From: Planctomycetota bacterium
Lineage (GTDB): Bacteria > Planctomycetota > PLA2 > JAEUHO01
Length of the DNA: 64,000 nucleotides
Assembly (NCBI GenBank): GCA_029259775.1
Contig: JAJDEN010000016.1
Coordinates: 1-64,000 of the forward strand
Direction of reading: 5' to 3'
Shown: positions 7,718 through 63,060 of the stretch, one piece after another
How the letters are laid out: each line of letters starts with the position of its first letter
Position numbering within the stretch: the first letter of the stretch is position 1
Translations under genes and position numbers: made by a program
Notes under the pieces: generated by a model
What the model saw: the letters and a program-made list of their open reading frames with translations, nothing else
What the model was told of the DNA's origin: nothing
Database searches by the model: none

Positions 7718-7759
7718 GGCGGCGGCGTACTGTACGAGCAAGATGGCGGCGGAGAGCGT

Positions 7760-8371: not shown

Positions 8372-8372
8372 G

Positions 8373-44694: not shown

Positions 44695-45591
44695 TCAGTC
44701 CAAGAACGAGAACAGGTCGTCGCCATCGCGACAGATCGCGACGTCAGCTGGAACCCTCTGGCGCGCGGTGTCGGGATCGACCCCCCAATGCCCCACATGC
44801 GTGATCGCGATCTTCTTCGCCAGCCCCTCGCGCGCGATCTCGATCATGCGATCCGTCCCCGGATGTCCGTAGCCGCCCTCGCCCAGGTAGGTGCCGTCGC
44901 CCACGAAGAGATCGACCCGGAGGATGGCCCAGACGTCCTTCACGTACTCCTGCTCGCCGACAGGCGAGTCCGGATCGATCAGGCGCTTGCCCATCCCACG
45001 CGGCCCCATGTCGGTCGCGTAGAGGATCCGCTGCGGAGGCCCCCCACGCTCGACGTGGATCAGGAACGCCGTCGTCGGCTCGTCGTCGCGGTGGTTCGTC
45101 TCCACGCCCTTCAGCGTCACGGGCCCCACCTCGATGACCGTCCCGTCATCCCACGGCTCGAAGCAGATCTTCTCCTCGCCAGGACGCAGCAAGCTCGGCC
45201 ACAGCGCCTCGATCCGCCGCCTCGTCACCGGCCCGCAGTGCACCGGCAACACGTCAGGCCCCCCCCGCCGCGTGTAGCAGAGGTCCCGCAGCCCGTTCAT
45301 GTGGTCGTCGTGATGGTGCGAGATCACCACCCGGTCCACGACGGGGTCGATCCCCTCCCGTTCGAACTGGTGGGTCAGGTCCGGTGAGGCATCGAGCAGC
45401 ACATTCTGCCCACGGGAGGTCTGCCCACGGGAATTCTGCCCACGGGAGTTGCCTGCGGAGGTCTCCAAGAAGACCCCACTGCGCGTGCGGCGTTCCTTCG
45501 CATCCTCGCGCGAGAAGGCGCACTGGTCACATCCACACCCGGGCCGAGGGATCGGCCAGGCGTCACCGGTACCCAGAAATGTAGCGCGCAC
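44695..45591 (-). CDS. MBL-fold metallohydrolase (PhnP/lipoyl-octanoyltransferase-associated type)
   Basis: VRATFLGTGDAWPIPRPGCGCDQCAFS...VVISHHHDDHMNGLRDL...FLIHVERGG...GDGTYLGEGGYGHPGTDRMIEIA; GTG start inferred. Confidence 0.85.
   Translation of the reverse strand: MRATFLGTGDAWPIPRPGCGCDQCAFSREDAKERRTRSGVFLETSAGNSRGQNSRGQTSRGQNVLLDASPDLTHQFEREGIDPVVDRVVISHHHDDHMNGLRDLCYTRRGGPDVLPVHCGPVTRRRIEALWPSLLRPGEEKICFEPWDDGTVIEVGPVTLKGVETNHRDDEPTTAFLIHVERGGPPQRILYATDMGPRGMGKRLIDPDSPVGEQEYVKDVWAILRVDLFVGDGTYLGEGGYGHPGTDRMIEIAREGLAKKIAITHVGHWGVDPDTARQRVPADVAICRDGDDLFSFLD
45403..45447. repeat. 15-bp tandem repeat x3 inside the MBL-fold gene
   Basis: attctgcccacggga / ggtctgcccacggga / attctgcccacggga; encodes NSRGQNSRGQTSRGQN. 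Confidence 0.93.
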
Positions 45592-45685
45592 GTTCTCCAC
45601 AACCCGGTTGTAGCCAAAGCCTGTATCCACGGCACGTCCTTTGAAGAGTAGAGAGCGGAGGTGGAGGAGGCCCACGGAGAACACC

Positions 45686-45988
45686 GTGGCGTCCAAGCAC
45701 CTCTGCATCCACACCGATATCGCGCAACGCCTACGCGAGGCCACAGAGCCTCGCGCGGGCTCCCTCGACGATCTCATCGGCCGCGCACGCCGCGGCGACG
45801 TGCGCGCCTTCCAAGCCCTGCGCAAGAAGTTCGAACCCCAGCTGGTCAACTTCGTCCGGAGCTACGTGAAGGGCGACGAGGACACCGCCCACGACGTCGT
45901 GCAGGAGACGTTCCTCATCGCCTGGACCAAGATCAACCAGATCAAGGACGGCAAGCACCTCAGGCCGTGGCTCTACCGCGTTCGGTAG
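45686..45988 (+). pseudogene. ECF sigma factor truncated within region 2 by the recombinase element
   Basis: VASKHLCIHTDIAQRLREATEPRAGSLDDLIGRARRGDVRAFQALRKKFEPQLVNFVRSYVKGDEDTAHDVVQETFLIAWTKINQIKDGKHLRPWLYRV then RSSTOP; no region 4. Confidence 0.85.
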
Positions 45989-47516
45989 TTCCACTAGTTG
46001 GCGGTCCTTCAAGAAGAAAAGGGAGGTAGTTCAGCCTTAGCGTTACCTCCTCCTTGCGGACGGTGACACGGTCGACGAGCGATTCAATCGTCTGACGCTT
46101 GGCGTCTTCGTCCAAGGCCTCCAGATTGCCCAGAAGAGACTTGGCCATCTCAAGAGCTTGGCTCTCGTCGAGGAGTTGGGATTTGAGGCCGTCCAGTTCG
46201 CCCTGCGTCCGTGCAGCCGCCACTGAGAGTTGCTTCTGCCGTGCCTCAAGAGGCTGGTAGCGCGTTCCAAAGCCCTCGGTGGGGATCTCACCCTGGCGGT
46301 GAAGGCTGAACAGGTGATCTAGCTCCCCCTCCACGCCTCGGAGCTGGCTGGTAAGGCTCTGGAGGAGCTCCCGGCGCTCCTCCACGATCTGGTCCCCCTG
46401 AAGCAGGACAGCCGCGATCGTCTCGGGCGTGAGCCAGCTACGCAGCTTCTCCAGGAAGATGGCCTCCAGATCCGCTGTCGGGATGGAGGTGGAGCAGGCC
46501 TTGCAGCTGTAACTGTGGCTCTTGGAGCCCACGTACATCTTGTTGCCGCAGCCGCAGTGAACGAGCCCGGTGAACAGGTGCTTGCTCTTCCTCCCCGGGC
46601 GCTTGGCGAACCGCTCCGCGTTCCGGTCCAGTATGGCGTTGACCTGATCCCAGAGTTCGTCAGAGACGATCCGCGGCGCTGAAATGTAGACCCATTCACT
46701 CTCAGGTTTCGTGCGAGGCTGACCTGTCACGGAGTCCATGAAGCTGTGATTGGTTCTTCGCAGTCCCTTGGAGACGGGATTGGTCAGAATGTGCCTAACG
46801 CTCTTGTTGCTCCACTCCTTGCCCCTGCGAGTTCTCATCCCTCTCTCATTGAGATCGCGGGCCACGGTGAGCACGCGCCGGTGCTTTAGGAAGAGCTCGT
46901 ACATCAGCGCACGAACTGACGCCTCTTCAGGCAGAAGCTCCAACTGCTTGCTCTCGTTCCAGCGATAGCCGTACGGAGCCTGGCCCCCAAGCGGCTTGCC
47001 CATCTTGGCCCTGGTCGCCACCGCCTCCTTGACTCGGCTGGAGATCTCCTCGCGCTCCCACTGCGCCAGAGCCGCAATCACGGTGTAGAAGAGCCGCCCT
47101 GAGTGAGAACCCGTGTCGATGTTCTCCTGAAGACTCACTAGATCTGCGTCGTGATTGCGGAAGTAGTCGGCAAAATCCAGAAGATCGCGCGTGTTACGAG
47201 CGAGTCGCGCCAACTTGGAGAAGATGAGGGCTTCAATCCTGCCGCTCCTCACGTCTTCCAGCATGCGACGGCACTCAGGATGATCGCGTACGTGCTTCCC
47301 GCTCACCGCAGAGAGGTGATAGATCTCTACGACGCCCCAGTCCTTGGCCGCTGCGAATCCGCGAGCTCGGTGCTCGTGCGTCTCCGGACTATCGCCTGCA
47401 GCCTGGTTCTCCGTACTTACACGGATCCAGACCCCGACCGAACGCTTGCGGGATGAAACAGCGGGATCACTCACGAGCAGCTCCTGTACTCTCACAGACC
47501 GTGAATTGTAGTACAC
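45960..47516 (-). CDS. Large serine recombinase (resolvase, recombinase and zinc-ribbon domains)
   Basis: SVGVWIRVSTENQAAGDSPETHEHR...IEALIFSKLARLARNTRDLLDFADYF...LFYTVIAALAQWEREEISSRVKEA...GGQAPYGYRW...GLVHCGCGNKMYVGSKSHSYSCKAC. Confidence 0.95.
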   Translation of the reverse strand: MYYNSRSVRVQELLVSDPAVSSRKRSVGVWIRVSTENQAAGDSPETHEHRARGFAAAKDWGVVEIYHLSAVSGKHVRDHPECRRMLEDVRSGRIEALIFSKLARLARNTRDLLDFADYFRNHDADLVSLQENIDTGSHSGRLFYTVIAALAQWEREEISSRVKEAVATRAKMGKPLGGQAPYGYRWNESKQLELLPEEASVRALMYELFLKHRRVLTVARDLNERGMRTRRGKEWSNKSVRHILTNPVSKGLRRTNHSFMDSVTGQPRTKPESEWVYISAPRIVSDELWDQVNAILDRNAERFAKRPGRKSKHLFTGLVHCGCGNKMYVGSKSHSYSCKACSTSIPTADLEAIFLEKLRSWLTPETIAAVLLQGDQIVEERRELLQSLTSQLRGVEGELDHLFSLHRQGEIPTEGFGTRYQPLEARQKQLSVAAARTQGELDGLKSQLLDESQALEMAKSLLGNLEALDEDAKRQTIESLVDRVTVRKEEVTLRLNYLPFLLEGPPTSGTTERGRATA

Positions 47517-48157
47517 GAAGCGCGCGCGTCAGAGGGAGGGATAGATCCCCCGGAGCCCCTCGCCCGCATGCAGGCCCCAACGAGTGAGCGAGCTTACGAG
47601 CGCCGGGCCGACCAACGGCGTGGCCGCGAGCGAGTGTCTTCACGGCGCGACGTCCCCTGGCCCGGGCAGGCTCATGAGGGGTATTAGCGCGTATGCGCTA
47701 GATAGAGCGCGGCTAGATGAGTAAGCCAGGCAGTCTCAGCGCACTCTCGGAGGCGGCCACGAATTCTCGAGTTAGACATGTCAGCCATGGCGAAATGAGG
47801 GAGCCCTGGGGAACCGCCGGCTGGGCTGCGCTGCCTGGCCTCTGTATGCGCGGTGATCCCACCCAGGGTCGGGCTCCGGTCCGCGGTGCGTCGAGTCGGG
47901 GGGAGGGCGCCTCCACCCACATCCATGGGTAACACCCGGCTCGACGTTTCCGGAACTCCCCTGAACGCGCCTCAACTCCAACTCCTCAGAGAGCCTGATG
48001 CCAAGCACAGCCCCCTCATCATCTCAGGCCAGACGCTACCGGCATATCGCAGAGCTGCGTCCGGCACACGCGCGGAGTGCTCCCGCGACGCATCTCGCGT
48101 TGACGCTCATGGTCTTCGCCGTTCCTTCGGTCACACAGCGTCGTCGGGGGTGGGTCA

Positions 48158-48418
48158 TCACGAGTTGGGTCCCTCCAGAATCCTGACGGCGAGTTCAATC
48201 TCAACGCTCGCAGCATCTGGGGCGTGTGGGAGCTTGTGAATCGCTTGACCAATGTGCTCTTGGATAGGTTCCAGCGGACGGCTCTCTGCGAGAGCGTCGC
48301 TCATCGCGTCTCGAGCTTGCTCGAGTGCTAGGGGGGGTATCTCAAGGTCGCCGCGCGCCAAGGCATGCAGTGCCGTGTTGAGGCGCAGTCGGACGAACTC
48401 CAACTGAGCGGCTGACAT
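48158..48418 (-). CDS. Hypothetical small protein
   Basis: 86 aa MSAAQLEFVRLRLNTALHALARGDLEIPPLALEQARDAMSDALAES...; plausible soluble helical composition. Confidence 0.45.
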   Translation of the reverse strand: MSAAQLEFVRLRLNTALHALARGDLEIPPLALEQARDAMSDALAESRPLEPIQEHIGQAIHKLPHAPDAASVEIELAVRILEGPNS

Positions 48419-48475
48419 GGTGCAAGCACTCCCCCTGGCGTGGTCTTCCCCTTTCGGCCTGAAAGCCGGAGGGAC

Positions 48476-48943
48476 TCAGCGCCTCCGCTTGGGATGGCGC
48501 CGCCTCCGTTCGGGCGGGAGAAACCCCAGCATTTCGATACCCCAGAGCCACTCGTGCCCATCGACGGAGAACTCCACCTCGGCCCAAACCTTCTCTTCCC
48601 TGATCCACTGACGGAAGTTGGACACGTCGTGCCGTCCGGAACCGCGCTTCTTGTGCTGGCGGATGTAGTACTCCACCCAGACCTCTTGCCTCGTCCAACC
48701 GTGACGCGGACTCGCTACGGACCCTCGCGCAAAGTCACCCCGCAAACTCCAGACCAAGGCGCGGGCAGCGCGGACGTTGTGGTCGTTGCGTGGGCGCCGC
48801 GGCGATTGGATCACATGAGCATCAAGCGTACGAGCGTTCGCCAGCTCGCGCTCTCGATAGAAACGTAAAGGGTGGTTACCACCGACGATGCAGCGCGACC
48901 TTACGGTTTGACTTGATAATCGAGACGTGCGGGAGACTCTCAT
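48476..48943 (-). CDS. Hypothetical protein
   Basis: 155-aa ORF; RQEVWVEYYIRQHKKRGSGRHDVSNFRQWIREEKVWAEVEFSVDGHEWLWGIEMLGFLPPE looks protein-like, N-terminal part doubtful. Confidence 0.4.
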   Translation of the reverse strand: MRVSRTSRLSSQTVRSRCIVGGNHPLRFYRERELANARTLDAHVIQSPRRPRNDHNVRAARALVWSLRGDFARGSVASPRHGWTRQEVWVEYYIRQHKKRGSGRHDVSNFRQWIREEKVWAEVEFSVDGHEWLWGIEMLGFLPPERRRRHPKRRR

Positions 48944-49025
48944 CGTCGGCGCTGTCGAGCATCCCCGAATTGAGGACGTTACCCTCCGGCGGCGCCCCAG
49001 CGCCTGAATGCGCTAGCATGAACAG

Positions 49026-51119
49026 ATGAGCAGCACCCTGACTCCCTTCGACACAGACGCTAGGAAGAGATTGGCGCGTAAGCCGAGGCGCGTCAGGCCT
49101 GGAGCAGTGCCCCCGCATTCACGGCTGCCTGCGGCTCGTGGCGCTGGAAACCCAAGCGACCGCGAAGCGGGCAAGGACCCGATCTCACCGCCTGGCGCCA
49201 CGGCCCGTCATACGTATCCGCTCAAGGCCGAGGATGCCGTCGACCCCCTGATCGGCAAGACGATCGGACGCTGCCGGATCGAGATGCTGGTCGGTGTTGG
49301 AAAAACGGCGCGTGTGTACCAAGGAAGGCACGAGGCGCTGGACGGCCTCGTCGCCGTTAAGATCCTCCGGCCACGCGTGGCAGAGAACCAGGGCTTGGTC
49401 GATCGCTTTCATTCGGAAGCGCGAGCCATCGCATCGATCGACAACGAGAACGTGCTCAAGATCTATGACGTCGGTACGGAGGCCGGGCAGCACTACATGG
49501 TCGTCGAACTGCTCGAGGGCGAGGAGATCCTCGCCCTGATCCGTCGCGAGGGCCAGATCGAGGTCATGGATGCCCTGCGCATCATTCGTCAGGCGACCAA
49601 CGGCCTAGGCGCCGCGCATGAGAGAGAGCTCGTGCACAGAGACGTCAAGCCCGAGAACCTCTTCCTGCTCGACGACGGCACCGTCAAGGTGCTGGACTTT
49701 GGCCTTGCCGCGAACTTCGACAAGAACAGCGAACGGGTCGGCACCCCTCACTACATGGCTCCTGAGGTGTGCCAGTCCGGAGCCGTCTCTCCCGCCAATG
49801 ACATCTACGGGCTGGGCATCTCGTTGTTTCACCTTCTCACAGGGAGGCCTCCCTACGCAGGCCGCGACAGGAAGGCCATCTTCTCCGCTCACCTCGCCGG
49901 GCTTGCGCTCCACCCCGAGCGAGAGCTCCGTGGCCTACCCAAAGAAGTCGCTGACCTCGTTCGTCAGTTGACGAAGCGAGAGCCGCAGATGCGACCGACG
50001 GCGGCCGAACTCCTGGACGCCCTGGACCGTATTGGAGGCAAGGAACTCAAGCAGAAGGCGAGCTTGGGGCGTCGGCGGAAGCGCAGCCGATCACGCCTCG
50101 CGGTTGCCCGGCGTGACCGACGCGGCAAACGAGTTCCCGTGCTTCCGATCGCCATTGGGATCATCTCGGCCGTCGCCATCGGCCTGCTCGCCCTGGGAGG
50201 CCAAGGCGGTGGGACGGCTGAGCGCAGCCGTGTCCAAGCGAACGTCCCGGACGACGCTGTGAGCAGCGGATCGCGTCCTCAGGAGCCCAGGCCTGCGAAG
50301 GCCCCTGAGAAGAGCGTAGCGAAGAATGCGCGCCCCGAGGCGGTGGAGCGCGAGAGGGAGGCTAGCGAGGCCCTCGAGCGCGCCGAGGCGTACGCGCGCA
50401 AGACTTGGCGTGCTCCCGCGGACACGGATGCTGTTCTCTTGAAGTACACGTCGGTGTGGAGCCGCCACGAGTTCACGAAGGCTGGCAAGGAGGCTAGGCG
50501 CAGGGCACTGGCCATCAAGCACAAGAAGATGCACCCTCACCCGGACCGAGTCCTAACGTCCGAGAGCGCCGTCGCCAAGGCCCAGAGTGCGTGGAAAGAG
50601 AATCGGCCGAAGGTCGAGGACCTCATTCGAAAGCACGACTACCGAGGTGCGAGGCGCCTGGTGCCCGAGTCCGTCTCCGACGCGGCGGGTGATTTCCCGA
50701 GGGAACTCGACTTCTGGCGTGAGCACACGCGCCTCCTCGAGGACTTCCAGTCGGAGTTCATCAATAGGGTGACCAAGCTCCCTCCAGACAAGCGGACCCT
50801 AGTCGCAGCGGACGGGCAAGCAACCATTCGCCGGGTGACCCCAACCTCATTCGAGGTCCGCATCGGAGGGCGACGCGAGTCCTTGCCCTGGTCGAGGGTC
50901 GGTGCTGATGTCATCGCGGAGCTTGCTGCGGTTGCCTTCGGAACCGAGGATGCACGTCTGGTCATGCTCAGCGCCTCGTTCGCCTTCGCGCACAAGCTGG
51001 GGGAGAGTTTCTGGGACACACAGCTGCTGCTCGGCATTACGCACGGGGCCGAGGCCTACGACCGGCTGAAGAGGGCGTACGCCAAGCGCTTCCGGGCCTG
51101 GAGCGAGGCGGAGAGATAG
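49026..51119 (+). CDS. Ser/Thr protein kinase with TM and extracytoplasmic C-terminal region
   Basis: RCRIEMLVGVGKTARVYQGRHEALDGLVAVKILRP...ELVHRDVKPENLFLLDDGTVKVLDFGLAANF...GTPHYMAPEV; TM VPVLPIAIGIISAVAIGLLALGG. Confidence 0.92.
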   Translation: MSSTLTPFDTDARKRLARKPRRVRPGAVPPHSRLPAARGAGNPSDREAGKDPISPPGATARHTYPLKAEDAVDPLIGKTIGRCRIEMLVGVGKTARVYQGRHEALDGLVAVKILRPRVAENQGLVDRFHSEARAIASIDNENVLKIYDVGTEAGQHYMVVELLEGEEILALIRREGQIEVMDALRIIRQATNGLGAAHERELVHRDVKPENLFLLDDGTVKVLDFGLAANFDKNSERVGTPHYMAPEVCQSGAVSPANDIYGLGISLFHLLTGRPPYAGRDRKAIFSAHLAGLALHPERELRGLPKEVADLVRQLTKREPQMRPTAAELLDALDRIGGKELKQKASLGRRRKRSRSRLAVARRDRRGKRVPVLPIAIGIISAVAIGLLALGGQGGGTAERSRVQANVPDDAVSSGSRPQEPRPAKAPEKSVAKNARPEAVEREREASEALERAEAYARKTWRAPADTDAVLLKYTSVWSRHEFTKAGKEARRRALAIKHKKMHPHPDRVLTSESAVAKAQSAWKENRPKVEDLIRKHDYRGARRLVPESVSDAAGDFPRELDFWREHTRLLEDFQSEFINRVTKLPPDKRTLVAADGQATIRRVTPTSFEVRIGGRRESLPWSRVGADVIAELAAVAFGTEDARLVMLSASFAFAHKLGESFWDTQLLLGITHGAEAYDRLKRAYAKRFRAWSEAER

Positions 51120-51215
51120 GTCAATCGTAGATGCCTCGACAACAGCCCCTGTGGGCTACTTCGTGAGTCGCCAGGTGGCACACTCAGCGGGCGCGAGTCA
51201 CCATGGAGATGAGAA

Positions 51216-51377
51216 ATGGCGAGGAAGACGTACACGGCCGAGCAGATCATTCGGAAGCTGCGTGAGGCCAGAGTCGAGGTTGCGAGGGGAGATGGCGTCG
51301 TCCATGGGATCCGAGCGCAGCCCTCAGCCAACTCAGGCCCGAATGCGGCGCGAGATCGGGTCCGTTGGATCATCTAG
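51216..51377 (+). pseudogene. IS3-type transposase OrfA N-terminal fragment
   Basis: MARKTYTAEQIIRKLREARVEVARGDGVVHGI..., terminated early. Confidence 0.7.
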
Positions 51378-51473
51378 CGTCGGGGAGGCCAGCGCGGGAA
51401 GGTGCGGTGTGTGCAGAGATGGCCATGTATAGCGAACATCCACTAGAGTCCGCCCCGGGGACAATCAGGAGCG

Positions 51474-51764
51474 CACATCGCCAACATCGCATCGGTATTG
51501 AAAGAAGAGATCCAGCGCCCCGCGCGTAGGGAGATCCGCGCCGCCACCGGGTCGATCAAGAAGCACCGGGCTGACGACCGCAGCGCCATCGCCGCGCTGA
51601 AGCGGCAAGTCGCCAGTCTGGAGCGCGACGTGGCCTTCCTCCAGAAGCGCGAGAAGGGCCGTCTCAAGAAGGCACCCACTGCCACTGAAGCCGAGGGCGT
51701 CCAATTCAGCCCCAAGTGGGTCGCTGCAGGCCGTGTGCGGCTGGAACTCTCCGCAAGGGACTAG
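51474..51764 (+). pseudogene. Truncated HTH/XRE-type regulator lacking its HTH
   Basis: IANIASVLKEEIQRPARREIRAATGSIKKHRADDRSAIAALKRQVASLERDVAFLQKRE...GVQFSPKWVAAGRVRLELSARD then stop. Confidence 0.5.
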
Positions 51765-51953
51765 GCCAGCCTCCCACTGCAGCCGGGCCTCAGCCGAAGA
51801 TTAGCAGCGCGACATGCGTTGCAGACCGAGTCTTGCAGGCAGATCGAGACTGTGGCGAGCTTCGACGCTACTTGGCTGTTCCCGCGGCTTGAGCCACAGT
51901 TCGGGCAGCCACCGGAACATCTCGCTAGACCGGCGCGCGACCTTCACGGGCCT

Positions 51954-54167
51954 CTAGAAGTCTAGATCGAGGGCAAGAACCACCGACCGGCCGGGCTCGT
52001 TCTGCCCTGAACCGTGGATCCTGTAGTTCTCGTCCAGCACGTTTTCGAGTGCGAGGCTCATCCGCAGGTTGCGGCCCAACTTGGCCCCGGCCCTGAGGTT
52101 CAGGCGCGTCCACGCGGGTGTCCCGCCCGGCGGGATGCGACGCGAGTCCGTCTCGTCTCGGAACGAGAGGCGGTCCTCGCGGGCAGAATGCTCGATGTCG
52201 GCCTGGGCCCAGAACCGGGAGCAGGGCGGCGCGTAGCGCACGCCCGTCCACACGGCGAAGGGCTTCATACGGTCGAGGGGATGGCGCACCAGGGCGCCGG
52301 CGGGATCGAACTGGTCCACCTCGCCGTCCGTATATGAGACGGTTCCGAACCATGTCCAAGCGGGCGCTGCGCGCCAACTCCACTCCAAGTCGATTCCCCA
52401 CACCCAGCCGTCGCCGGCGTTGTCCTTACGCACCTCCGGGACGCCACCGATCAGGGTGCCGGTCGGCGACACAACGATGCTGTTCTCGATGAACGTGTAC
52501 CAGCCCGAGAGGCCTGCACGCAGGCGCTGCTGCTCCGTCTTCACGCCCACCTCGAAGGACACGAACGTCTCGGGGTCGAGGTCAGGCGCGGGCGTCTCTA
52601 CGATGCTCGTCGAATCGAGCGCCGTAAGTTCATGCAGCGTCGGCGTACGGAAGCCCTGCGAGACACCGCCGTACACCGACCAGCGCGGATTCACGTGGTA
52701 GAGGGCGCGCAGGCTGCCCGAGACGTTAGTCCATTCGTTCGACACTTGGATGATGTTGCCGGGCGTCGTCGGATCGCTGCCCGCGACGGCGGGATTGTCG
52801 ACGCGGTCCGCCTCGGCCGCGGCATACGTAAATCGCACCCCGCCGAATACTTCCCAGCGCCCCCATGCGATGTGCTCCTGAACGTAGGCACCGAAGAGGT
52901 CGTACGTGGCATCATCACCGACCGGACCCTGGATCACGGGCCCGCCGGGCACGCCGGCAGTAGAGCTCCGCCGGAAGCTGTCGACCGTGTCGTGGTAGTA
53001 CTCCGCACCATAGGTGAAGCGACCCCAGCGCGTGGGCGACTCGAGTTGCAGTTGGACGCCGATTTGACCGACGCTGAAGCCCTGCAGGTCACGTCGATCT
53101 CCGGTGCGCAAGCGGTCCCGCTCCTCGGCTTGGCGGTGGTAGCTCAGCGCCACGTGTCCGCGCGAAAACGGCGCGGAACACTCACCGGCGTCGAAGGCAA
53201 GCTTCGCGTAGGCGAGATCGCGTTCCTGGTCGAAGTCACGCTGCAGGTCACCGCCGACGCTCGTTCCGTGAAACGGAACGGCATCGACGGTGGTCTCGGT
53301 GCGTGGCGCGTCAAACTGCCGGACGTGCTGCCACGCCGTCGTCAGCGTCCAGTAGCGCCCGATACGCTGGTCGAAGCGCACATCGGCGTCCCACTCGTCG
53401 ATCCCGCCAGTGCCAGGCAGGCTGCCGCCGCCGCTATCGATGTCGCCGTAGATCTTGCGACTGAGCCCGGCTGCCCACCCCAAGTTGTTCATATTGCCCT
53501 CGGTCTGGACACGCGCGAAGTGGGCGCGCTCTCCCGAGGCAGAGCGCAGATACATGCCGCCGTTCGTATGCAACCCCCGCTCGAAGCTCGTCCGCCGCCA
53601 GGGGATCACGTTCACCGTCCCGCCAATCGCATCGCTGCCGTAGAGGACGGAGTGCGGACCGCGCGCCACCTCCAGGCGCTGGAGCGACAGCGCATCGATC
53701 GTCGCCCAGTACTGATTCGGGCCGGTCCGGAAAGTGGAATTGTTGAGCCGGATGCCGTCGATGAGCATCAGGTTTCTAAAGCCCGTAAAGCCGCGGATGA
53801 AGGGCGAGTGCTGGAGCGGGCCCGTCTTCTGCGCGAGGACGCCCGGCAGGCCTTGGAGCGCATCAGAGAGCGAGCGAGCCGCTCGTCGAATGCGGATCTC
53901 CTCGTTCGTAATCACGGTCACGGTGTTGGGCACACGAAGCATCTCCAGCCGGCCGCGCGTGGCCGTGATGGATGCCTCGCTACCTGCGTTGGCGGGGCCG
54001 CCGAGAAGGCGTGGGGCTATGACGTCCGCCGGCGCAAGGACCGGAATGTCATCCTCTTCGGTCGCGGACGGATCGTCCTGTGCCCAGACGCTTGGACCCA
54101 AGGACGCGAAGACGGCCAGGCAGATGCCGGTGAAAGCGGTGCACAGGCGGCGGTTGCCGATATCCAT
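51954..54167 (-). CDS. TonB-dependent outer-membrane receptor
   Basis: Signal, plug (VITNEEIRIRRAARSLSDALQGLPGVLAQKTGPLQHSPFIRGFTGFRNLMLIDGIRLNNS...GPHSVLYGSDAIGGTVNV), terminal beta strand YRIHGSGQNEPGRSVVLALDLDF. Confidence 0.95.
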   Translation of the reverse strand: MDIGNRRLCTAFTGICLAVFASLGPSVWAQDDPSATEEDDIPVLAPADVIAPRLLGGPANAGSEASITATRGRLEMLRVPNTVTVITNEEIRIRRAARSLSDALQGLPGVLAQKTGPLQHSPFIRGFTGFRNLMLIDGIRLNNSTFRTGPNQYWATIDALSLQRLEVARGPHSVLYGSDAIGGTVNVIPWRRTSFERGLHTNGGMYLRSASGERAHFARVQTEGNMNNLGWAAGLSRKIYGDIDSGGGSLPGTGGIDEWDADVRFDQRIGRYWTLTTAWQHVRQFDAPRTETTVDAVPFHGTSVGGDLQRDFDQERDLAYAKLAFDAGECSAPFSRGHVALSYHRQAEERDRLRTGDRRDLQGFSVGQIGVQLQLESPTRWGRFTYGAEYYHDTVDSFRRSSTAGVPGGPVIQGPVGDDATYDLFGAYVQEHIAWGRWEVFGGVRFTYAAAEADRVDNPAVAGSDPTTPGNIIQVSNEWTNVSGSLRALYHVNPRWSVYGGVSQGFRTPTLHELTALDSTSIVETPAPDLDPETFVSFEVGVKTEQQRLRAGLSGWYTFIENSIVVSPTGTLIGGVPEVRKDNAGDGWVWGIDLEWSWRAAPAWTWFGTVSYTDGEVDQFDPAGALVRHPLDRMKPFAVWTGVRYAPPCSRFWAQADIEHSAREDRLSFRDETDSRRIPPGGTPAWTRLNLRAGAKLGRNLRMSLALENVLDENYRIHGSGQNEPGRSVVLALDLDF

Positions 54168-54434
54168 TACTTATCCTCCCAGTCGATGCGCACCCAACGT
54201 TGGATCATGCACGGGGTTCACACGCGATCCGGCGCGCGCGAGGACTTCTGGGCACTTGTGCATATCTGCCTGAACCGGCGGCGCTCACGCGTGCACACGT
54301 CCGGAAGACGGGGCACCCCGCAGACGCCCATCATCTGGGTCTGGGTCGCCCTCGGCCTGTGCCCCGTGCAGGGCGAGGTACGTCGCGACCGTTGCACGTG
54401 GAGCATTGCGAGATCATTGCGGGTGTGCGATGAC

Positions 54435-55997
54435 CTAGGTGATCGACGTCTGCCCGGCCGGCTGGCCGAAGACGACGGTTGCGCGGAACACCCCGTCCTC
54501 GACGGTCACGTGAAACTCCAGATCGGCGACGCGAGCGATGTCGGCTACGATGCTGAGCCCCAGCCCGGCGTGCTGCACGCCGGTTCGAGCCCCGTCCCCG
54601 CGCCAGAACGCTCTCGTTGCATTCGCGGCCTCCCTTGCCGTGAGGGCTCCGGCCGGATTTGACAGCGAAAGTGCGGCGCCGCCAGGCTCGGTGCCGATCC
54701 TCGCTTCGATCAGGCTCCCTGGCGGGGCGTGCTCGATCGCGTTCTGAATCAGGTTGGAGAGAACTGATTCCACGATGTCAGGATCGGAGCGCACATGGGC
54801 CGCGGGTCCCTGGGCGAGGTCGAACCGCTGCTCGCGCGCCGATGCTCTCGTGCGCAGCAGCCTCCATGAGTCGAGCATGTGCTGGCGCAGATCGATCACT
54901 TCCGCGGCGGCCCACGATTGCCCCGTTCGGATACGGGCCAGGCGCGAGAGGGCCGAAACCAAACGCGTCATTCGATCCGCGACCGCGTGACACTGCGTTG
55001 CGCAGCGGGCCTGCAACGCGGCATCATCTGGCCATTGGCGCGCGACGTCCGTGATGCTCTTGAGCTCCGCGACAGGAGTGCGTAGCTCGTGCGCAAGGTC
55101 TGCCGTCATGCGCCGCTCGCGAGTGAAGGCATCGTCGAGCTTGTTCAGGGCAGCGTTCAGAGCATCGACGATGGGAACCAGGTCCGCCGGAGGCTTCGAG
55201 AGGCGGACAGCGCGGTCCAGGGTCGCGGCATCCAGGCGGCTCACCTCGTTTCGCAGGTCCCGTAGCGGCGCTAGGGCCCGGCGCGTCGTACACACGGCGA
55301 GGCCCGCCGCGCCCAGCACCAAGAGCACACCGCTCACCAGCAGCGCGGTGCGGAGCGACGCGAGGAGCGCGTGCTGTTCTTCCGCGTTCGTGGCGACGAC
55401 GACGGTCGCCGACACGGGCGGCAGCTTGAGCCGTTGGCGCAGCTCTGACCAAGAGCGCTGCCAAGCCGGACTGTCAAAGGGGACGTCAGTGAGTCGGAGC
55501 GTGACGGCGCGCCCCCGGCTTCCGTCCGGCAGCGTTGTGGGGCCGGTCGGCGGCAGCCTGCCGGCCGGCGCCAACTCTCGACCGTCCAGGGAGCGCGACC
55601 GGGCGAGAAGGACGCCAGCACGGTCACGGACCTCGAAGTGGTGCGGGGTGGCGGAACCGCCGGCTGCCGGCCCCCAACGGACCTTGGATAGGTCCGCCGC
55701 GAGACGTCCCACTGCGAGTTCACGGAAGTGGGCCCGACGACGCTCGGCAGCGGAATCCGCGAGATTGATTTCACGCAGCACGTCGGCGCCCAGCCGGTTG
55801 AACTCCGTCTGCCCAGCGGGCTCGACACCGACGTGCAGCGCCTCTGAGAGTCGCCGGGCCTCGCCAGCCAGAGACGCGTCGAGCGCGCCCCAGACGGCCG
55901 CCTGGACGAAGTGATCCAGCACGAGTCCTCCAACGAAGAAGATACCGGTCAGCCCGAGGGTCAGCGGCACGGTCAGCCGGCGTTGGAAGGATCTCAA
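54435..55997 (-). CDS. Two-component sensor histidine kinase
   Basis: LRSFQRRLTVPLTLGLTGIFFVGGLVLDHFVQ; RRMTADLAHELRTPVAELKSITDVAR; HATPase-like C-term; TTG start overlapping the regulator stop (TTGA). Confidence 0.88.
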   Translation of the reverse strand: MRSFQRRLTVPLTLGLTGIFFVGGLVLDHFVQAAVWGALDASLAGEARRLSEALHVGVEPAGQTEFNRLGADVLREINLADSAAERRRAHFRELAVGRLAADLSKVRWGPAAGGSATPHHFEVRDRAGVLLARSRSLDGRELAPAGRLPPTGPTTLPDGSRGRAVTLRLTDVPFDSPAWQRSWSELRQRLKLPPVSATVVVATNAEEQHALLASLRTALLVSGVLLVLGAAGLAVCTTRRALAPLRDLRNEVSRLDAATLDRAVRLSKPPADLVPIVDALNAALNKLDDAFTRERRMTADLAHELRTPVAELKSITDVARQWPDDAALQARCATQCHAVADRMTRLVSALSRLARIRTGQSWAAAEVIDLRQHMLDSWRLLRTRASAREQRFDLAQGPAAHVRSDPDIVESVLSNLIQNAIEHAPPGSLIEARIGTEPGGAALSLSNPAGALTAREAANATRAFWRGDGARTGVQHAGLGLSIVADIARVADLEFHVTVEDGVFRATVVFGQPAGQTSIT

Positions 55998-56671
55998 GGC
56001 ACCGCCACGAGCAACAGGTAGCCGCGCCCGCGCAGCGTTTCGATTCGAGGTGCCCCCTCGATGCTCCCGAGCCAAGCCCGAAGGCGGCAGATCGCGGAAT
56101 CAACCGCGTTTCCTTCAGGCAGAGTGTGTTCATCATAGAGCGCGTCTTCGATCTCGATGCGGGAGACGACCTCACCCGGCCGCCGGGCCAAGTACTCGAG
56201 CAGGGCATACTGGCGCGGCGGGATCGGCACCACTCGCCCGCCGCAGTGCGCGATCTGCTTGGCGGTGTCGAGTTGCAGCGTGCCCATCTCTAGCTTCGGG
56301 GCCTTCTGGCCGTAGCGGCGCCGACCGAGGGCCTGGATGCGAGCGACGAGTTCCTGGAAGTCGAAGGGCTTGACGAGGTAGTCATCGGCCCCCGCCCGCA
56401 GGCCGAGCACGCGATCCTGGATCCGGTCGCGCGCTGTCAGCATCAGCACGTGCGCCTGTGCACCGTGAGCGCGTAGTGATCGCAGCACTTCGATGCCATC
56501 CATACTCGGGAGCATCACGTCGAGGATCACGACATCGTAAGGGTTGGAGCGCGCGTAGGAGAGTCCTCGTCGCCCATCTCGCACCACGTCGACGGCGTAG
56601 CCGAGCCGTGACAGCCCGGCCTTGAGCGACTCGCACAGAAGTTCTGAATCCTCGACGACGAGCAAGCGCAT
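55994..56671 (-). CDS. OmpR/PhoB-family response regulator
   Basis: MRLLVVEDSELLCESLKAGLSRLGYAVDVVRDGRRGL...VVILDVMLPSMDGIEVL...LVKPFDFQELVAR; wHTH ending TLRGRGYLLLV. Confidence 0.93.
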   Translation of the reverse strand: MRLLVVEDSELLCESLKAGLSRLGYAVDVVRDGRRGLSYARSNPYDVVILDVMLPSMDGIEVLRSLRAHGAQAHVLMLTARDRIQDRVLGLRAGADDYLVKPFDFQELVARIQALGRRRYGQKAPKLEMGTLQLDTAKQIAHCGGRVVPIPPRQYALLEYLARRPGEVVSRIEIEDALYDEHTLPEGNAVDSAICRLRAWLGSIEGAPRIETLRGRGYLLLVAVP

Positions 56672-57056
56672 GACGCGATCATCCGTTCCAACCGCTCCTC
56701 TGCAAGCGCTGGGCACGGTGCTGCTCATGGCCGCCGAGGAAACCAATCATCCGCTCGCTTGATCTGTCCTGATCGCGGTAGGTGAAGCCTTGGGGCGGTT
56801 CAACACTCCAGCGCCAGCATCAAGCCCAGCGATGGAATGGGGCACCGCAGGGCAGGCCCCGAAGGGTGCTCGCGCCAGCCGGCGGCGAGGTTGCAGCAGC
56901 GAGCAAGCCAGGCTGCCGGGGCCCGTGGTCTCGCGCCAATCTGCCCGCCCCTGCAACTCCCCCGCGCCTAGGCGCCACCCGCCCCCGCCTAGAGGGTTTC
57001 CCCGCTCGACCGCGTCATCCTCAATCCGTCAGCCTCCCGGCGTCGGTCAGGGTAGG

Positions 57057-57560
57057 TCAGACTTCCTCACCAGTGGACACGCCGCCCCAGCAGTCACCGC
57101 TGTCCAGTCCTGAGCTGCCTGCCCCCTTGGCATGGAGGAAGAGCTGCATGCGGTACGCGGCCATGCACTGCGGCCCCATGAGCATCAGGACTTCACCCAG
57201 CGGGGTCTCGCGATTCTCCCAGGGGAGCACGCCACTCTTGGTCAGTAGATCCTCATCCGTGAGACCTGCGAGGACTCTGCGCATGGCTGCGAGTTGCTCG
57301 TCCATCGCCTGGGCGAACTCCTCCGGCGGGAGATTGCCTGCACGCTCTCGTGCCGCGTCCGCGATGGTCGAGCCGCCGCCACCATAGAGAGCGACGCCGT
57401 TGAGTGCCGCGTACGTGAGGTAGCGCAGCAGTTCGAGCGTTGATCGCTGCTGTGGCGTTGGTCTCCAATCGAGGCCGCCCGCCGGGATTTGCGTGGCCAG
57501 ATGCTTGATCACGCGCGTCTCGTAGGCCAGCGCACTGAGGAGTTGATCCCTGAAACTCAT
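57057..57560 (-). CDS. DinB-like four-helix protein
   Basis: MSFRDQLLSALAYETRVIKHLATQIPAGGLDWRPTPQQRSTLELLRYLTYAALN...EEFAQAMDEQLAAMRRVLAGLTDEDL. Confidence 0.65.
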   Translation of the reverse strand: MSFRDQLLSALAYETRVIKHLATQIPAGGLDWRPTPQQRSTLELLRYLTYAALNGVALYGGGGSTIADAARERAGNLPPEEFAQAMDEQLAAMRRVLAGLTDEDLLTKSGVLPWENRETPLGEVLMLMGPQCMAAYRMQLFLHAKGAGSSGLDSGDCWGGVSTGEEV

Positions 57561-57704
57561 GATGGTGTAGGCCTCCTCGCTTGCACGACTCGATTCGCTC
57601 AATCGCGTCGCGCTTGAGCTTCAGGCTACAGGGAGCCTCCAGCGGCGCCCATGGGATGCTCGACTCAGGAGAGCAAGCTCACCTGCCTGTCCCTACGACA
57701 ACGC

Positions 57705-57865
57705 CAGCCCAAAGCCAGACATCTCCATTGTGAGGGGCTTGCGTAGATCCCGGTGGACCCTCGTCACGGTCTCGGGATGCTCGTCGAGGAGCAGCGAGAT
57801 CGCGTCGTAGGCGGCGAAGTACTCGCGCGTGACCTTCGCCGTGACCTGCACCCCAGAAGCTGGAC
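57705..57865 (-). pseudogene. Possible transposase N-terminal remnant
   Basis: Reverse reading VQVTAKVTREYFAAYDAISLLLDEHPETVTRVHRDLRKPLTMEMSGFGLALS*; no downstream catalytic domain. Confidence 0.35.
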
Positions 57866-58159
57866 CACTTCTTGGGGATCAGGTCATGCCCCTGTCAAGG
57901 ATGGTTGTCTGACTTGCTTCCTAGGCGTTCCTCTCGTCTCGGATCAGGGGAGATGAGTCGGTTCGGCCAGTCATCTCTTCGGGCTCTTCGTCCCATGGTG
58001 TCAAGTTCGGACGGCAGCTTCCCTATCAGGTCAGCGATTTGAGAGCGGCTCAGAACGAGCGCCCCTCGGCTTGCGCCACCTTGCCCCCCCGGGCTTGCTG
58101 CCATCCGACTCCGACTCATGTCCCGTGATCCGTTCGCTTCCTACGTGTTGCTCTTCAGG

Positions 58160-59266
58160 CTACGCAGCCAGATCCGCGCGCGGCGTACCGAACGGCTTGG
58201 TCACGTCGTAGCACTCTCCAAGGGCGAAGAGCCGCCAGATGCCCTCCGCCAGCTTCCTTCCCGCGGCCGCTCGGGCTTTCACCTTGTTGCCGAGTCTGCG
58301 CTGCTTGGCCTCGATCCAAGATCGGATCACGGCGCCCGAGCCCTTGCGACACCTGCAGCAGATGTTCACCGCCTGCAGGAGGGCCCGGCGAAGATGTGGG
58401 CTGCCGTGTCGCGTGATGCCGCCGTGCTTGACGCGGCCTCCGCTGCTTCGATCGATGGGCGTGAGCCCGACGTAGCGGCCGAAGGCCTTGGCCGAGCGGA
58501 ACCGGCGAATCGGCCCCGACTCGGCGAAGATCGTGGCCGCGATGATCGGCCCTACGCCGGGGATGTGCTTGCGTAGCTCCTTCACCTCCGGGAGCTCGGC
58601 GGTCAACGCCTCGATGCGGCCCTGCCAGTCCAGGATGTTTCCATCGATGTGATCGATCAGCTCGAGCGTGAACGTGATGGCCATGCCCAGGTGCCCCGGC
58701 CCGCGCTGAGCACGCTCGCGCAGGAACGCCCAGTTCGCTTCGCTTCGAAGTGTCCGGTTGGGGAGCCGAATCGCCATCTGGCGCAGATGGCCACGAAGCT
58801 GCACGATGAGGCGCGTGCGTAGGGTGATGAGCGCTTGGCATTCTCGCGTGGCCAGACGCAGCTCGCGCAAGTCCCCCGTGGGGATGAAGCACTCGGGCAA
58901 ACGGCGCTCGTGCGTCAGATAGGCCGGCCACCAGGCGTCGTTGAGATCGTTCTTCTCCTGAGAGTTGGCGATGGCGCGAATGCGCCGCGATTGGGCCACA
59001 TGCACGCGATCGGCGCCCAGGCGCTCGCGCAGCACGTCGTAGTCCCAAAGCGTGCCGCCGCACGCCTCCAGAGCGACGTGCGTCTTGCGCCGGCCCACGT
59101 GCTCGCGAAGGAAGGCCTTGAGCGCCTCGTGCGTAGAATCGAACTCGCCGCATGCGATCTCGTCGCCCCGCCGATCAAGCCGTGAGAACACGATCAGGTC
59201 CTTGTGCACATCCAGGCCGATGGCCTCACCGTTGACCGTCAGTACGTTCCGCGCCAGCTTCTTCAT
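58160..59266 (-). CDS. IS110-family transposase (DEDD)
   Basis: MKKLARNVLTVNGEAIGLDVHKDLIVFSRLDRRG...KNDLNDAWWPAYL...IPGVGPIIAATIFAESGPIRRFRSAKAFGRYVGLTPIDRSSGGRVKHGGITRHGSPHLRRALLQAV. Confidence 0.93.
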   Translation of the reverse strand: MKKLARNVLTVNGEAIGLDVHKDLIVFSRLDRRGDEIACGEFDSTHEALKAFLREHVGRRKTHVALEACGGTLWDYDVLRERLGADRVHVAQSRRIRAIANSQEKNDLNDAWWPAYLTHERRLPECFIPTGDLRELRLATRECQALITLRTRLIVQLRGHLRQMAIRLPNRTLRSEANWAFLRERAQRGPGHLGMAITFTLELIDHIDGNILDWQGRIEALTAELPEVKELRKHIPGVGPIIAATIFAESGPIRRFRSAKAFGRYVGLTPIDRSSGGRVKHGGITRHGSPHLRRALLQAVNICCRCRKGSGAVIRSWIEAKQRRLGNKVKARAAAGRKLAEGIWRLFALGECYDVTKPFGTPRADLAA

Positions 59267-59490
59267 GGGTTGCCCTCTCGGTTTGTTGACTCGCACGTCA
59301 ACTGGGACTCTGAGCCCGATCGGGGACATCGCTCCCCGGCCGGAGGGCAGCTCGTTTGCGACATCAGGTCAATACCCATACCTCGCGCAACCGGCCGAAC
59401 GACCGCGCACGGTGAGTTCGCGCTCTCTGGCGTTCCGCCCGAGACCGAACTGCTATGCATCATGCGTGGTCCTGGCCCAGGCTTCCTAGT
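58160..59490 (-). mobile_element. IS110-family insertion sequence, ends not precisely defined
   Basis: Transposase plus about 220-nt upstream non-coding region with inverted repeats. Confidence 0.55.
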
Positions 59491-60011
59491 GCCTGGGCAG
59501 GGCGCATCGAGAGCACCCCGAGTCCTCGTCCTTCGGGCTCACGCTAGAGCACGCTCGGCGTTGGACGACATCCCACTTGGGGAGCGCGAGAAGTTCCTGA
59601 AGCACCGATAGCATCAACTGCTCCTGGAACCGAAACAGAGTCGAAAGCCTCGCCACTTCACTGGCCCGCTTTCGGCGCCCTCGGCAACTCTCCCGTTGAG
59701 CTTGCAACTGCAGAAGGTCTGGAGCCGAAGATGCTGATCTTGCTAGGTGTAAGGGTTCTGAATAGCCGCTCTAGCGACATCCCGACAAGCCCTCCCGCTC
59801 ATCTGAGAACCTATCGCTCCGGCCCCGCCTCGACTATCCGGCTGGCTTGGGTGGTTGCCCGGCTCGGGAGATCACCGCAGTTACTCCTGCTATCACCGGC
59901 CTCTGCCGGTGGGATTGGTACGGCATGAACAGGAACAAGCCGCTCGCAGCTACCCTCATCGCGCTCCTTCTGGCTCTCGGCCCAGCGGGTCCGGTTGAAG
60001 CGGGGGGGTGA

Positions 60012-60872
60012 AACCCGGAGGGTAGGGCCCCGAGCCCGAGCACACCCATCCCGCCGGAGGCGGGCCGAACCTCGACACCTACCACCACACCTCAGAGGTC
60101 GCCGACGGCGCGCGTGCCATCAGATCCCACGCCGGGCCCGCCTCCGACGCCAGCCCCGCCAACAACTCAGCCCTCCACGCGCGCCACGGGTCGGTTCAGG
60201 TCGCTGGCACGCACGAGGGACACGACCGTGCGCTGGGAAGCACTGGGGCGCATCAGCCCCCGAATCGTTACTCGCGAAACCCCTGAAGCTGCGCGCCGTT
60301 CAGAGACCGCGCGCAGGGCGATGGTCGCCCAGCCCCATGTCGTCTTCATCTACGACGCGCCCGAGTCGTGCGATGGAAGGTGCCGAGGCGCGTGTGACCG
60401 GTACTACGACATCGAGAAGGCGATGAAGGACGAGAGGGTGGCGCTTGCCACGCGTCCATTCCGAATGATCCGCATGAACACGACGGCGGCGAAACTCGAG
60501 CCCATGTTCAGCAAACTGAAGGTGAGCCGTTCTCAGGTTGTCTTTCTCAATGCGGTAACCGGGAAGGTCGTCCCCCTAAGCCCAAGCAAGGCAAAGAAGC
60601 CAAGTCAACTCTACGCCTCGATGCGAAGGGCATTCTCGGACTTCTACGGTGGCAAGCTGGATCAGCTTGTTCGTCGCCACGAACATCTGTTGATCGAACA
60701 CGACAAGATGGGCCGGGCATTGATGGAGGTTCAGCAGCGTCAGGGGCGAGCCCAGGAGGGCACCCTCAAGGACCGCCTCAATCGGCGTGCGCTTGCGATT
60801 GCAACAAGACAGAAACTGGTGGACACAGAGATCGAAGAGCTCTGGAGACTGAGACCCAAGCCCCACGATTGA
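60012..60872 (+). CDS. Secreted thioredoxin-fold-like protein body, in frame downstream of a signal peptide (59925-60008) but separated by TGA
   Basis: Open frame NPEGRAPSPSTPIPPEAGRTSTPTTTPQ...MVAQPHVVFIYDAPESCDGRCRGACDRYYDIEKAM...; signal MNRNKPLAATLIALLLALGPAGPVEAGG in the same frame. Confidence 0.6.
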   Translation, partial: NPEGRAPSPSTPIPPEAGRTSTPTTTPQRSPTARVPSDPTPGPPPTPAPPTTQPSTRATGRFRSLARTRDTTVRWEALGRISPRIVTRETPEAARRSETARRAMVAQPHVVFIYDAPESCDGRCRGACDRYYDIEKAMKDERVALATRPFRMIRMNTTAAKLEPMFSKLKVSRSQVVFLNAVTGKVVPLSPSKAKKPSQLYASMRRAFSDFYGGKLDQLVRRHEHLLIEHDKMGRALMEVQQRQGRAQEGTLKDRLNRRALAIATRQKLVDTEIEELWRLRPKPHD

Positions 60873-61612
60873 GCACGGGCCCACGGACGGTGGCTCGCAT
60901 CGGCGCTCGTGCAGCGGCGCGTGCGAGGAACCGGGTCTCCCAGCCACCACACTACTTGTGGTTCCGCCGCGGACGTGCTCACGTGCGACCTCTACTTGAG
61001 TGAGCACAAGCCACAAACTGCACTGGCTGTGGCGCCTTCGTCTCACGAGCTCGTCTCGGCGGAGCCCCCAGCTTGAGGGCGGGGGCCGCGTTGTTCCTTT
61101 CGTCGAATGGCTGTCTGGTCAGAAGCGGGGAACCGGAGTCGCCAATGCCCTCATCTGTTGTCTGGCCTTGGGGCCGGACAACGGATGAGCGGTGATCGGA
61201 CTGCCGCAGAGGACGCTGGGCGGACTTCCGTGCACGCCCTTGGAGCGCGAGCCTGTGTTCGCGCAGCTGCATGAGGAACGCTTCGTGGACCGAGCGCCAG
61301 CGTCGATCTACACCATGTCTCTTGAGGAAAAGACGGATCCTGTACTCGATTCGCACGCGTACCGCGCTCTTGAACCGAAGCACGAGACGCGGGAGCGCCG
61401 CGCCCAGCGTCGCCATCCAGGGCAAACACCACCCCAGCCGCAGGCGACGACGCCCAACTAAGTACGGATCTGGGACATCACGAAGCTGGCCAGAGGGCGA
61501 GGGGTTCGGTCCGCCCCAGAGCCGCTAGAGAGCCCTGCTCGGGTTCTTCTGCCTCCCACGGAGGTGAACCGAATTCTCGAGGCTCGGCAACTCTCTCTCA
61601 AGCGGGAGGGGC

Positions 61613-61990
61613 TTGCCCGTCGGAAATAGATACGCGAAGGAAGTACCCGTGCCTAAGCCTCAAACCAGCTTCATACTCTCACTCCTGCTCCTCGGTATTG
61701 CTAGTTGCGGCGGCTCATCCGGCGACGATTGCTCGACGGGAACTTGCCAGCTGCTGATCGTGAACAACACGGCCACTGACTTCGTCGAGCCCGTTCGCGC
61801 CGACTACGCATGTGGGCAGTTCGTCTGGACCACTTGGGCGGCTGGGGGGAACGCTGGAGGCGGCACGATGGACGAGCAGTGGCCAGCCGGCATTGCCGAC
61901 TTCCACTTCGTCGACGCGAATGGCATAGCTAGCGTCTATCTAGACGTCGTCCTCCCCGTTGGGGGAACCCAGAAGATCGAACTGAACTAG
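61613..61990 (+). CDS. Small lipoprotein
   Basis: SFILSLLLLGIASCGGSSGDDCSTGTCQLLIVNNTATDF...; lipobox-like GIASC. Confidence 0.6.
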   Translation: MPVGNRYAKEVPVPKPQTSFILSLLLLGIASCGGSSGDDCSTGTCQLLIVNNTATDFVEPVRADYACGQFVWTTWAAGGNAGGGTMDEQWPAGIADFHFVDANGIASVYLDVVLPVGGTQKIELN

Positions 61991-62087
61991 GAGCCTGTCC
62001 GAATATCGGCCCCTTCCACGAGGCCGCTCCCAGGTCGCGCCTCCCCGCTGGCCTGGCGTCAGTCGCCGTACGAAGGCGCCTCGGCTC

Positions 62088-62345
62088 TCAGCCCATCGCC
62101 TTATAGAGCTTGTTGAGGTTGTGCGCGGTGCAGAGTAGGTCACATTCGCCTTGCACCTTCTCGTGGCCTCGCGTCAGGAACTGCCTTAAGACCTTGGCGC
62201 CCTTGATCTGCCCGAACACAGGCGCAACCGTCTGTTTCCGGAGCCTGTAGCGACTGCGGTGGCCTGCGCGTCGTAGTCGGGTCCGCATCTCACAGGCGTA
62301 CGGCTGCTGCCAGTACAGAGGAGTGCCTGTCTCCCTCGACGAGTA
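62088..62345 (-). pseudogene. IS1182-type transposase C-terminal fragment
   Basis: RSRYRLRKQTVAPVFGQIKGAKVLRQFLTRGHEKVQGECDLLCTAHNLNKLYKAMG. Confidence 0.8.
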
Positions 62346-62425
62346 CCTGTCCGCTTTCAGCCTTGAATGGGTGTTGATATCGCTCTTTCCTAGAGCTGGC
62401 CACGGCGCCAGGGAAAGGACGAGAG

Positions 62426-62794
62426 ATGAGCGGACGGAAGAGGAACGATGAGAGGTCCGGCGGTCTAGGGGCCCGGGGCACGCCCCGGTGCACGGCCAGC
62501 ACGCGCCGACCCGAGGCACGCCGAGGCATCGAGTTTACGGGCGAGCAACGCTTGTTGGTGCTGGACTGCTGGTTCCGCACCGAGCTGGCGGCGACGGACT
62601 TCGCTCCGCTGGTGGGCGTCACCACGGCTTCGCTCTACGCCTGGCGGCGCAAGTTCGAGGACGAGGGCCCGGCCGGCTTGCTGGGGCACAAGCGCGGGAT
62701 GCGCGGCAGCCAGCTGCCGGAACCGACGCGGCGCGCGATCCTGTTGATGAAGGAAGCGCACTGGACTGGGGCCCGGAAGCGCCCGGAGAGCTGA
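62426..62794 (+). pseudogene. Truncated integrase/DDE-type transposase N-terminus (HTH)
   Basis: IEFTGEQRLLVLDCWFRTELAATDFAPLVGVTTASLYAWRRKFEDEGPAGLLGHKRG...ILLMKEAHWTGARK; no catalytic domain. Confidence 0.65.
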
Positions 62795-63060
62795 GCATGC
62801 GAGGGCTCGAGCGCTACCGTTCCAGGCCATGGCAGGTCTCCTGGTACGAGCGAGGCGCAGCATCGACACGCGAGCTTCCTGCGTTAACCACACGGAGAGC
62901 TCGCCTGAGGCGTTGCGAGCCCATTTCCGCGCTGCGCGTTGTCTAGAGAGATGCCAGGACCACGAATTCCGCTTCACGCGTACGAACAAGTCATTCCTAG
63001 ATGGACGGCCCGACGCGATTTGGTGAACCGATCTAGGCTAGTACGGCAACCTTCCCCTAC

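Follow-up and report, generated by a model that had tools for sequence, protein, structure and literature searches.

A large serine recombinase gene apparently split by the integration of its own element into an ECF sigma-factor gene

According to a review (PMC8371274), recombinases that disrupt their own gene are tyrosine enzymes found exclusively in archaea; in the SSV1-type suicidal integrases, attP lies within the integrase gene, which integration cuts into two inactive parts. An integration-dependent change of a C-terminus is also known for phage repressors, as in mycobacteriophage BPs (PMC4557955; PMC8092301). Known elements that interrupt regulator genes are the large serine recombinase (LSR) element skin, located in sigK of B. 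subtilis and C. difficile (PMC5025042), and the non-prophage, 28.6-kb gin, located in gerE of B. cereus (PMC5595907). Moreover, comM/magnesium chelatase is a known LSR target, accounting for 12.4% of predicted site-specific LSRs according to Durrant et al. 2022 (PMC10083194). What makes serine integrases act in one direction, and by what means elements recognise that they are integrated, is a live question that underlies genome-engineering tools.

Here, we analyzed a window of 64,000 nucleotides (the whole stretch under study, positions 1-64000 of contig C8) from a draft genome of 66 contigs and 5.09 Mb. The whole of our observations is best explained by a self-splitting LSR element, the integration of which cut both a sigma-factor gene and the LSR gene, and we consider this explanation very probable.

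The element and the interrupted sigma-factor gene

The features of the locus are collected in Table 1. The sigma reading frame is open through ...LRPWLYRV and broken thereafter; in full, it extends from a TTG at 45641 to 45988, where a stop codon lies within the element. The GTG at 45686 is the likely start, plausible in that intact homologues begin at the aligned position. We found the missing 3' half in the same genome (G000), where it begins with VARFKAI and is followed by a UDP-glucose dehydrogenase gene; it is not visible in the window because it lies on another contig. When the two halves are rejoined in silico at their common GT, CTCTACCGC-GT-CGCCAGGTTCAAG encodes LYRVARFK in a single ORF of 236 aa, counted from the upstream TTG, which reads ...LRPWLYRVARFKAITFLRRRG... 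as in the congeners. An earlier note, made from the letters of the window, had located the break in region 2 at the LSR junction and expected a 3' fragment starting like VARNLAID; both the break and the existence of a 3' half are confirmed here.

Table 1. Features of the locus (window coordinates equal those of contig C8)
Feature	Position	Strand	Remarks
Host flank, MBL-fold hydrolase ORF	44695..45849	-	Lactamase_B_2 (Pfam); same gene flanks intact sigma gene in G002 and G004
ECF sigma-factor gene, 5' half	45686..45981	+	Sigma70_r2 E=4.6e-10 (Pfam); intact homologues in G002 and G004; 3' half at C9:15521-15153
attB left half-site, sigma DNA TCAGGCCGTGGCTCTACCGC	45960..45979	+	12/20 like each attP arm
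Large serine recombinase, integrated form, 518 aa	45960..47516	-	Pfam Resolvase 2e-32, Recombinase 2.2e-22
Left part of element	45980..64000	.	runs on to contig end C8:66971; other end C9:35091 down to 15520
Crossover dinucleotide GT of attL	45980..45981	.	attR counterpart C9:15521-15520
attP arm at this element end, TCGGTAGTTCCACTAGTTGG	45982..46001	+	14/20 dyad with arm at C9 end
Cargo, Ser/Thr protein kinase	49026..51119	+	Pkinase E=7.7e-51 (Pfam)
Cargo, TonB-dependent receptor	51954..54167	-	76% identical paralogue in same genome at C19:156130
Cargo, histidine kinase (54435-56075) and response regulator (55994-56746)	54435..56746	-	two-component pair
IS110-family transposase within element	58160..59329	-	

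Relatives with an intact sigma gene, which the note had proposed to seek, exist in two congeners, G002 and G004 (~60% identical). There, the gene lies between MBL-fold/PASTA genes and a convergent UDP-glucose dehydrogenase gene, the same neighbours as here (the true start of the MBL-fold ORF is probably further inside). The 3' half is 63% identical to that of one congener, and identities to the congeners amount to 65.5% for the joined sigma protein, 57-59% for the MBL-fold neighbour, and 81-83% for the UDP-glucose dehydrogenase. The sigma gene thus shows no sign of decay, since its divergence is in line with that of the neighbouring genes. A close paralogue of the sigma gene is intact on contig C24 of the same genome.

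The GT core defines both junctions, and the element ends, once joined, yield an implied attP, TTGTGGAACCACCCT-GT-TCGGTAGTTCCACTA, with a dyad around the GT. Its arms match at 14 of 20 positions, as do ~5e-5 of random genomic 20-mers. Since the congeners share the flanking genes around an intact sigma gene and the attP arms match to this extent, the rejoining of the sigma halves stands above chance. The locus thus has the attL and attR, the 2-bp core, and the dyad attP that are expected of an LSR integrative element, and excision at this core would restore the sigma ORF, as the note had anticipated. When the window was searched for another occurrence of the core, only chance matches were returned. 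In attR (C9:15521-15553), the element arm and the sigma DNA each contain TCGCCAGGTT, the two copies lying ~22 bp apart; this doubling may be due to chance or be the remnant of an earlier event.

Over its C8 and C9 parts, the element measures at least 40.5 kb. Its middle lies outside the assembled contigs, because the contig ends are repeats, and no overlap physically links C8 to C9. The last 277 bp of C8 (66695-66971) recur at C15:21291-21567 with 99% identity, and this repeat probably broke the assembly. The two sides of the element have GC contents of 64.5% and 64.1%, versus 69.3% for the host DNA left of the site, which supports the earlier assignment of the kinase gene, the TonB receptor gene, and the two-component genes to the cargo. 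Overall, the cargo comprises kinases, this receptor, the two-component pair, and insertion sequences. Among the selected ORFs searched in the ~40.5 kb on either side of the missing middle, no phage structural or conjugation genes were recognised, and no IMG/VR contig encoded a relative of the window LSR. PADLOC matches of an element kinase look generic and were set aside.

Several other genes were observed on these contigs. Within the element, a 1,120-aa ORF (window 63061-64000, continuing to C8:66423) combines an N-terminus resembling a sigma factor with a long C-terminal region, and a second, similar fusion is found at C9:22719-24758. Close to attR, a cargo ORF (C9:17956-18813, locus L119) matches SduA_C (Shedu; Pfam E=1.4e-8) and has no PADLOC match. 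In the same locus, beside the sigma 3' half and the UDP-glucose dehydrogenase gene, C9:1-13670 contains a tyrosine-integrase-like gene (7268-8572) among unrelated genes, and a candidate tRNA-Asp gene can be read at C9 ~13590-13665. From its gene content, this stretch is probably a second integrated element adjoining the first.

The recombinase gene and its relatives

The 518-aa LSR has Pfam Resolvase and Recombinase domains as well as a Zn_ribbon whose score is slightly below the Pfam curated cut-off. Its last codons and stop are antisense sigma DNA, the stop lying 18-20 nt past the GT core, inside the sigma gene. The earlier note was thus right that the LSR end is chimeric and that the LSR is integrated inside the sigma gene; it missed that integration also split the LSR gene itself. 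Indeed, when the LSR ORF is joined across the implied attP, as in an in silico circular form, it encodes 600 aa versus 518 aa in the integrated form. The additional tail is encoded at the other element end (C9:15521-15784) and contains an XRE-type helix-turn-helix (HTH_3, E=8.2e-10). A profile of the tail matched the C9 edge (E=1.3e-10) and nothing else when C8, C9, and part of C49 were searched in six frames. Points against the assignment are that the window tail is short, with a single HTH, and that codon-position GC does not set it apart. The split keeps the serine catalytic, recombinase, and zinc domains together on one side and removes only this C-terminal HTH tail.

We compared the window LSR with a set of 80 LSRs, 45-54% identical, from genomes of many phyla; the best match in other genomes was 54% identical over the full-length kinship comparison. 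In 54 of the 80, the 5' part of comM (YifB, magnesium-chelatase-like) is directly convergent to the LSR and ends at MNPCPCG, and the LSR ORF passes the core into comM in 48 of 53 comM copies. This MNPCPCG site has TG as its core, whereas the window element has a sigma gene, a GT core, and other arms. The comM gene of the window genome itself is intact (C7:223574). In the tree, the window LSR pairs on a long stem with an LSR on C49 of the same genome (62% identical) that is found directly downstream of a complete FKBP gene, and comM targeting clusters weakly (30 of 500 shuffles are as low). None of the 80 relatives targets an ECF sigma gene in the arrangement of the window; L051 was examined as a candidate and rejected because its arrangement is different, with a same-strand sigma ORF 242 bp downstream. 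Searches of the five congeners and of further family members returned no close relative of the element LSR.

To examine whether the split extends to the family, we located the comM 3' halves in the genomes of the relatives and joined the element ends at a core set by the site motif, not by the reading frame. In all 23 resolved elements, and in L064 in addition, the LSR frame continues into a tail that is homologous (E 1e-28 to 1e-65); of the 26 comM pairs attempted, L037 showed no tail and L076 had a tail with a junction that was not resolved. For the C49 sister element, the other end was found on C61; the arms of its two ends mirror each other (AACAAGGGTCCGAACCC / AACAAGGGTCACAACCC), and the join to a tail is again in frame. 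Altogether, counting the window and C49/C61 elements, the join into the HTH tail is in frame in 26 of 26 elements with both ends resolved, where frame alone predicts one in three. The tail follows the consensus PALPFC..L.A.KP....YP..L.TLGDHLR.RRLDLGL.QK.VA..IGV...T..NWE.NR..P.....P.II.FLGY.P and often includes a second HTH.

Naturally unsplit LSR ORFs that include the tail occur on five contigs (L022, L036, L046, L071, and L079), none of them flanked by comM, while the tail is absent from the LSR ORF in all 54 comM-flanked copies. Resolvase, recombinase, and HTH_3 domains (Pfam) are present in a single protein in four of the five, L046 ending early in the tail, and the attP palindrome is visible inside unsplit ORFs, for instance, ATGGCAACGCAACTTCACCCCTGCGTTGCCAT in L071. 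In the genomes of these five copies, comM is intact in three and split in two. Plasmid and phage records, searched for unsplit copies, returned only distant LSRs of 25-30% identity, such as that of Paenibacillus phage Paisley (97% query coverage, 25% identity). In an AlphaFold2 model of the L079 protein (mean pLDDT 77), the att-encoded residues (~498-502) fall inside a low-confidence linker (482-508, pLDDT ~41) that is predicted to join the recombinase C-terminus to two HTH domains, the domain arrangement itself not being reliable given a pTM of 0.34.

Additional observations were made in the compared loci. At L017:8397-9917, a complete comM lies directly beside an LSR whose integration cut another comM on the other side, and this element may carry a replacement copy. 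An ATPase of TraG/VirD4-like appearance is encoded near the C49 LSR (L133:2798-4636, C49:16797-18638; PADLOC mad8, E=6.5e-20), and 27 of the compared loci have a related ORF close to the LSR. Family LSRs on contigs of archaeal metagenome-assembled genomes (L016 and L018; Thermoplasmatales and Thermococci) reflect either real transfer or mis-binning.

Proposed mechanism and other readings

We propose that a circular, apparently non-phage element of at least 40.5 kb recombined by means of its own LSR, between attP in the LSR gene and attB in region 2 of the sigma gene. In this reading, the sigma gene was cut into two intact halves, the frame of which would be rejoined by precise excision. The LSR gene was cut just past its zinc/coiled-coil domain, placing the 518-aa recombinase at one end and the XRE HTH tail at the other, where it was left without a proper start codon, and the 600-aa recombinase-HTH fusion would be encoded by the excised circle alone. 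As far as the anatomy is concerned, namely, that integration cuts the target gene and the LSR gene and that the tail-less LSR keeps its catalytic and zinc/coiled-coil parts, we regard this reading of the sequences as secure. The sequences directly show the two junctions, the empty site in the relatives, the in-frame joins, and the natural unsplit copies. Excision may also occur in vivo. Self-splitting would then be a conserved property of a widespread, usually comM-targeting LSR family, of which the window lineage has another target.

Could the locus result from an assembly chimera, mis-binning, or a chromosomal rearrangement instead of an inserted element? The genome is a draft and the contigs end in repeats, yet the sigma halves join exactly into one ORF, attP arms taken from two contigs mirror each other, the tail profile matches only the C9 edge, both sides of the break share the low GC of the element, and the gene order is unbroken in G002 and G004, all of which makes this extremely unlikely. 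We find it hardly more credible, and still highly unlikely, that the HTH tail belongs to a separate small gene, for a regulator or an excisionase, which merely happens to lie at the right element end and is in frame with the LSR by accident. XRE-type HTH proteins are common regulators, and most tails have a TTG at codon 2 or 5; however, these TTGs stem from the attP arm, an ATG precedes the HTH in only 3 of 23 tails with no conserved ATG start, and the conserved tail residues begin directly after the core. The in-frame joins without exception and the natural unsplit fusion ORFs also argue against a separate gene.

The earlier note had drawn the analogy with skin and offered regulated excision as an inference. 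In a skin-like developmental switch, a domesticated element would be excised in a regulated manner to turn the sigma factor on. The possible in-frame reconstitution of the sigma gene from two open, undecayed halves is compatible with this scenario, but a recent insertion would likewise look undecayed. Since the element is missing from the congeners and family members searched and its kin use other targets, mostly comM and, among the 80 compared, in no case a sigma gene in this arrangement, an ordinary insertion is the more likely, and the intact paralogue on C24 also speaks against the switch, which we judge very unlikely.

Within the self-splitting explanation, the HTH tail may set directionality, the main alternative being autoregulation. 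In the former case, the full-length LSR would integrate, and the tail-less LSR would be held back or would constitute the excision-competent form. A natural C-terminal module confined to the circle could set direction, since artificially fusing an LSR to its directionality factor reversed its preference (PMC5737554). No separate directionality factor was recognised in the element. We tentatively put forward, without considering it the probable outcome, that in this cross-phylum bacterial LSR family integration turns a recombinase-HTH fusion into a tail-less enzyme and thereby acts as a one-gene directionality switch that dispenses with a separate factor. An enzyme whose C-terminus is altered by the recombination it catalyses would represent a natural design that is directly testable. 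In addition, LSRs mined from integrated copies of this family would be truncated, the pre-integration form having an HTH tail from the other element end.

Comparison with known systems

The curated NCBIfam models nearest to the window LSR are those of the SCCmec recombinases CcrB (7.6e-39) and CcrC (1.3e-35) and of XisF (1.9e-31), with scores far under the curated cut-offs (133.8 of 900, 123 of 900, and 109.5 of 375, respectively). The comM LSRs share with it ~50% identity, an orientation convergent to the target, an ORF that passes the core into the target, and an HTH tail at the far end, and differ from the window system in their target, core, and arms. The portion of Durrant et al. that we consulted makes no mention of an attP splitting the LSR gene, and we found no description of self-splitting serine recombinases in the open-licence literature, a search that does not prove novelty.

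Like skin, the window element is an LSR element that interrupts the gene of a transcription regulator, which excision could restore, and like gin, it has no recognised phage genes. The host lineage and the recombinase family are different, and here the LSR gene is also split. Of the hallmarks of skin-type elements, in-frame restoration upon excision was obtained in silico, whereas conservation of the insertion in the lineage was not found. With mycobacteriophage BPs, the window system has in common an attP located in a regulatory gene, a shortened C-terminus, and free and integrated forms that differ. In BPs, however, the repressor is cut, a degradation tag is removed, and the tyrosine integrase is separate, while in the window system it is the recombinase that is cut, with the loss of domains predicted to bind DNA.

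The SSV1-type suicidal integrases share with the window LSR an attP within the recombinase gene and two gene fragments at the two element ends. The present system differs in its serine chemistry, its occurrence in bacteria of many phyla, and its protein-coding targets, and the catalytic part of the LSR stays whole. Self-splitting bacterial LSRs would thus contradict the statement that self-disrupting recombinases are exclusively archaeal.
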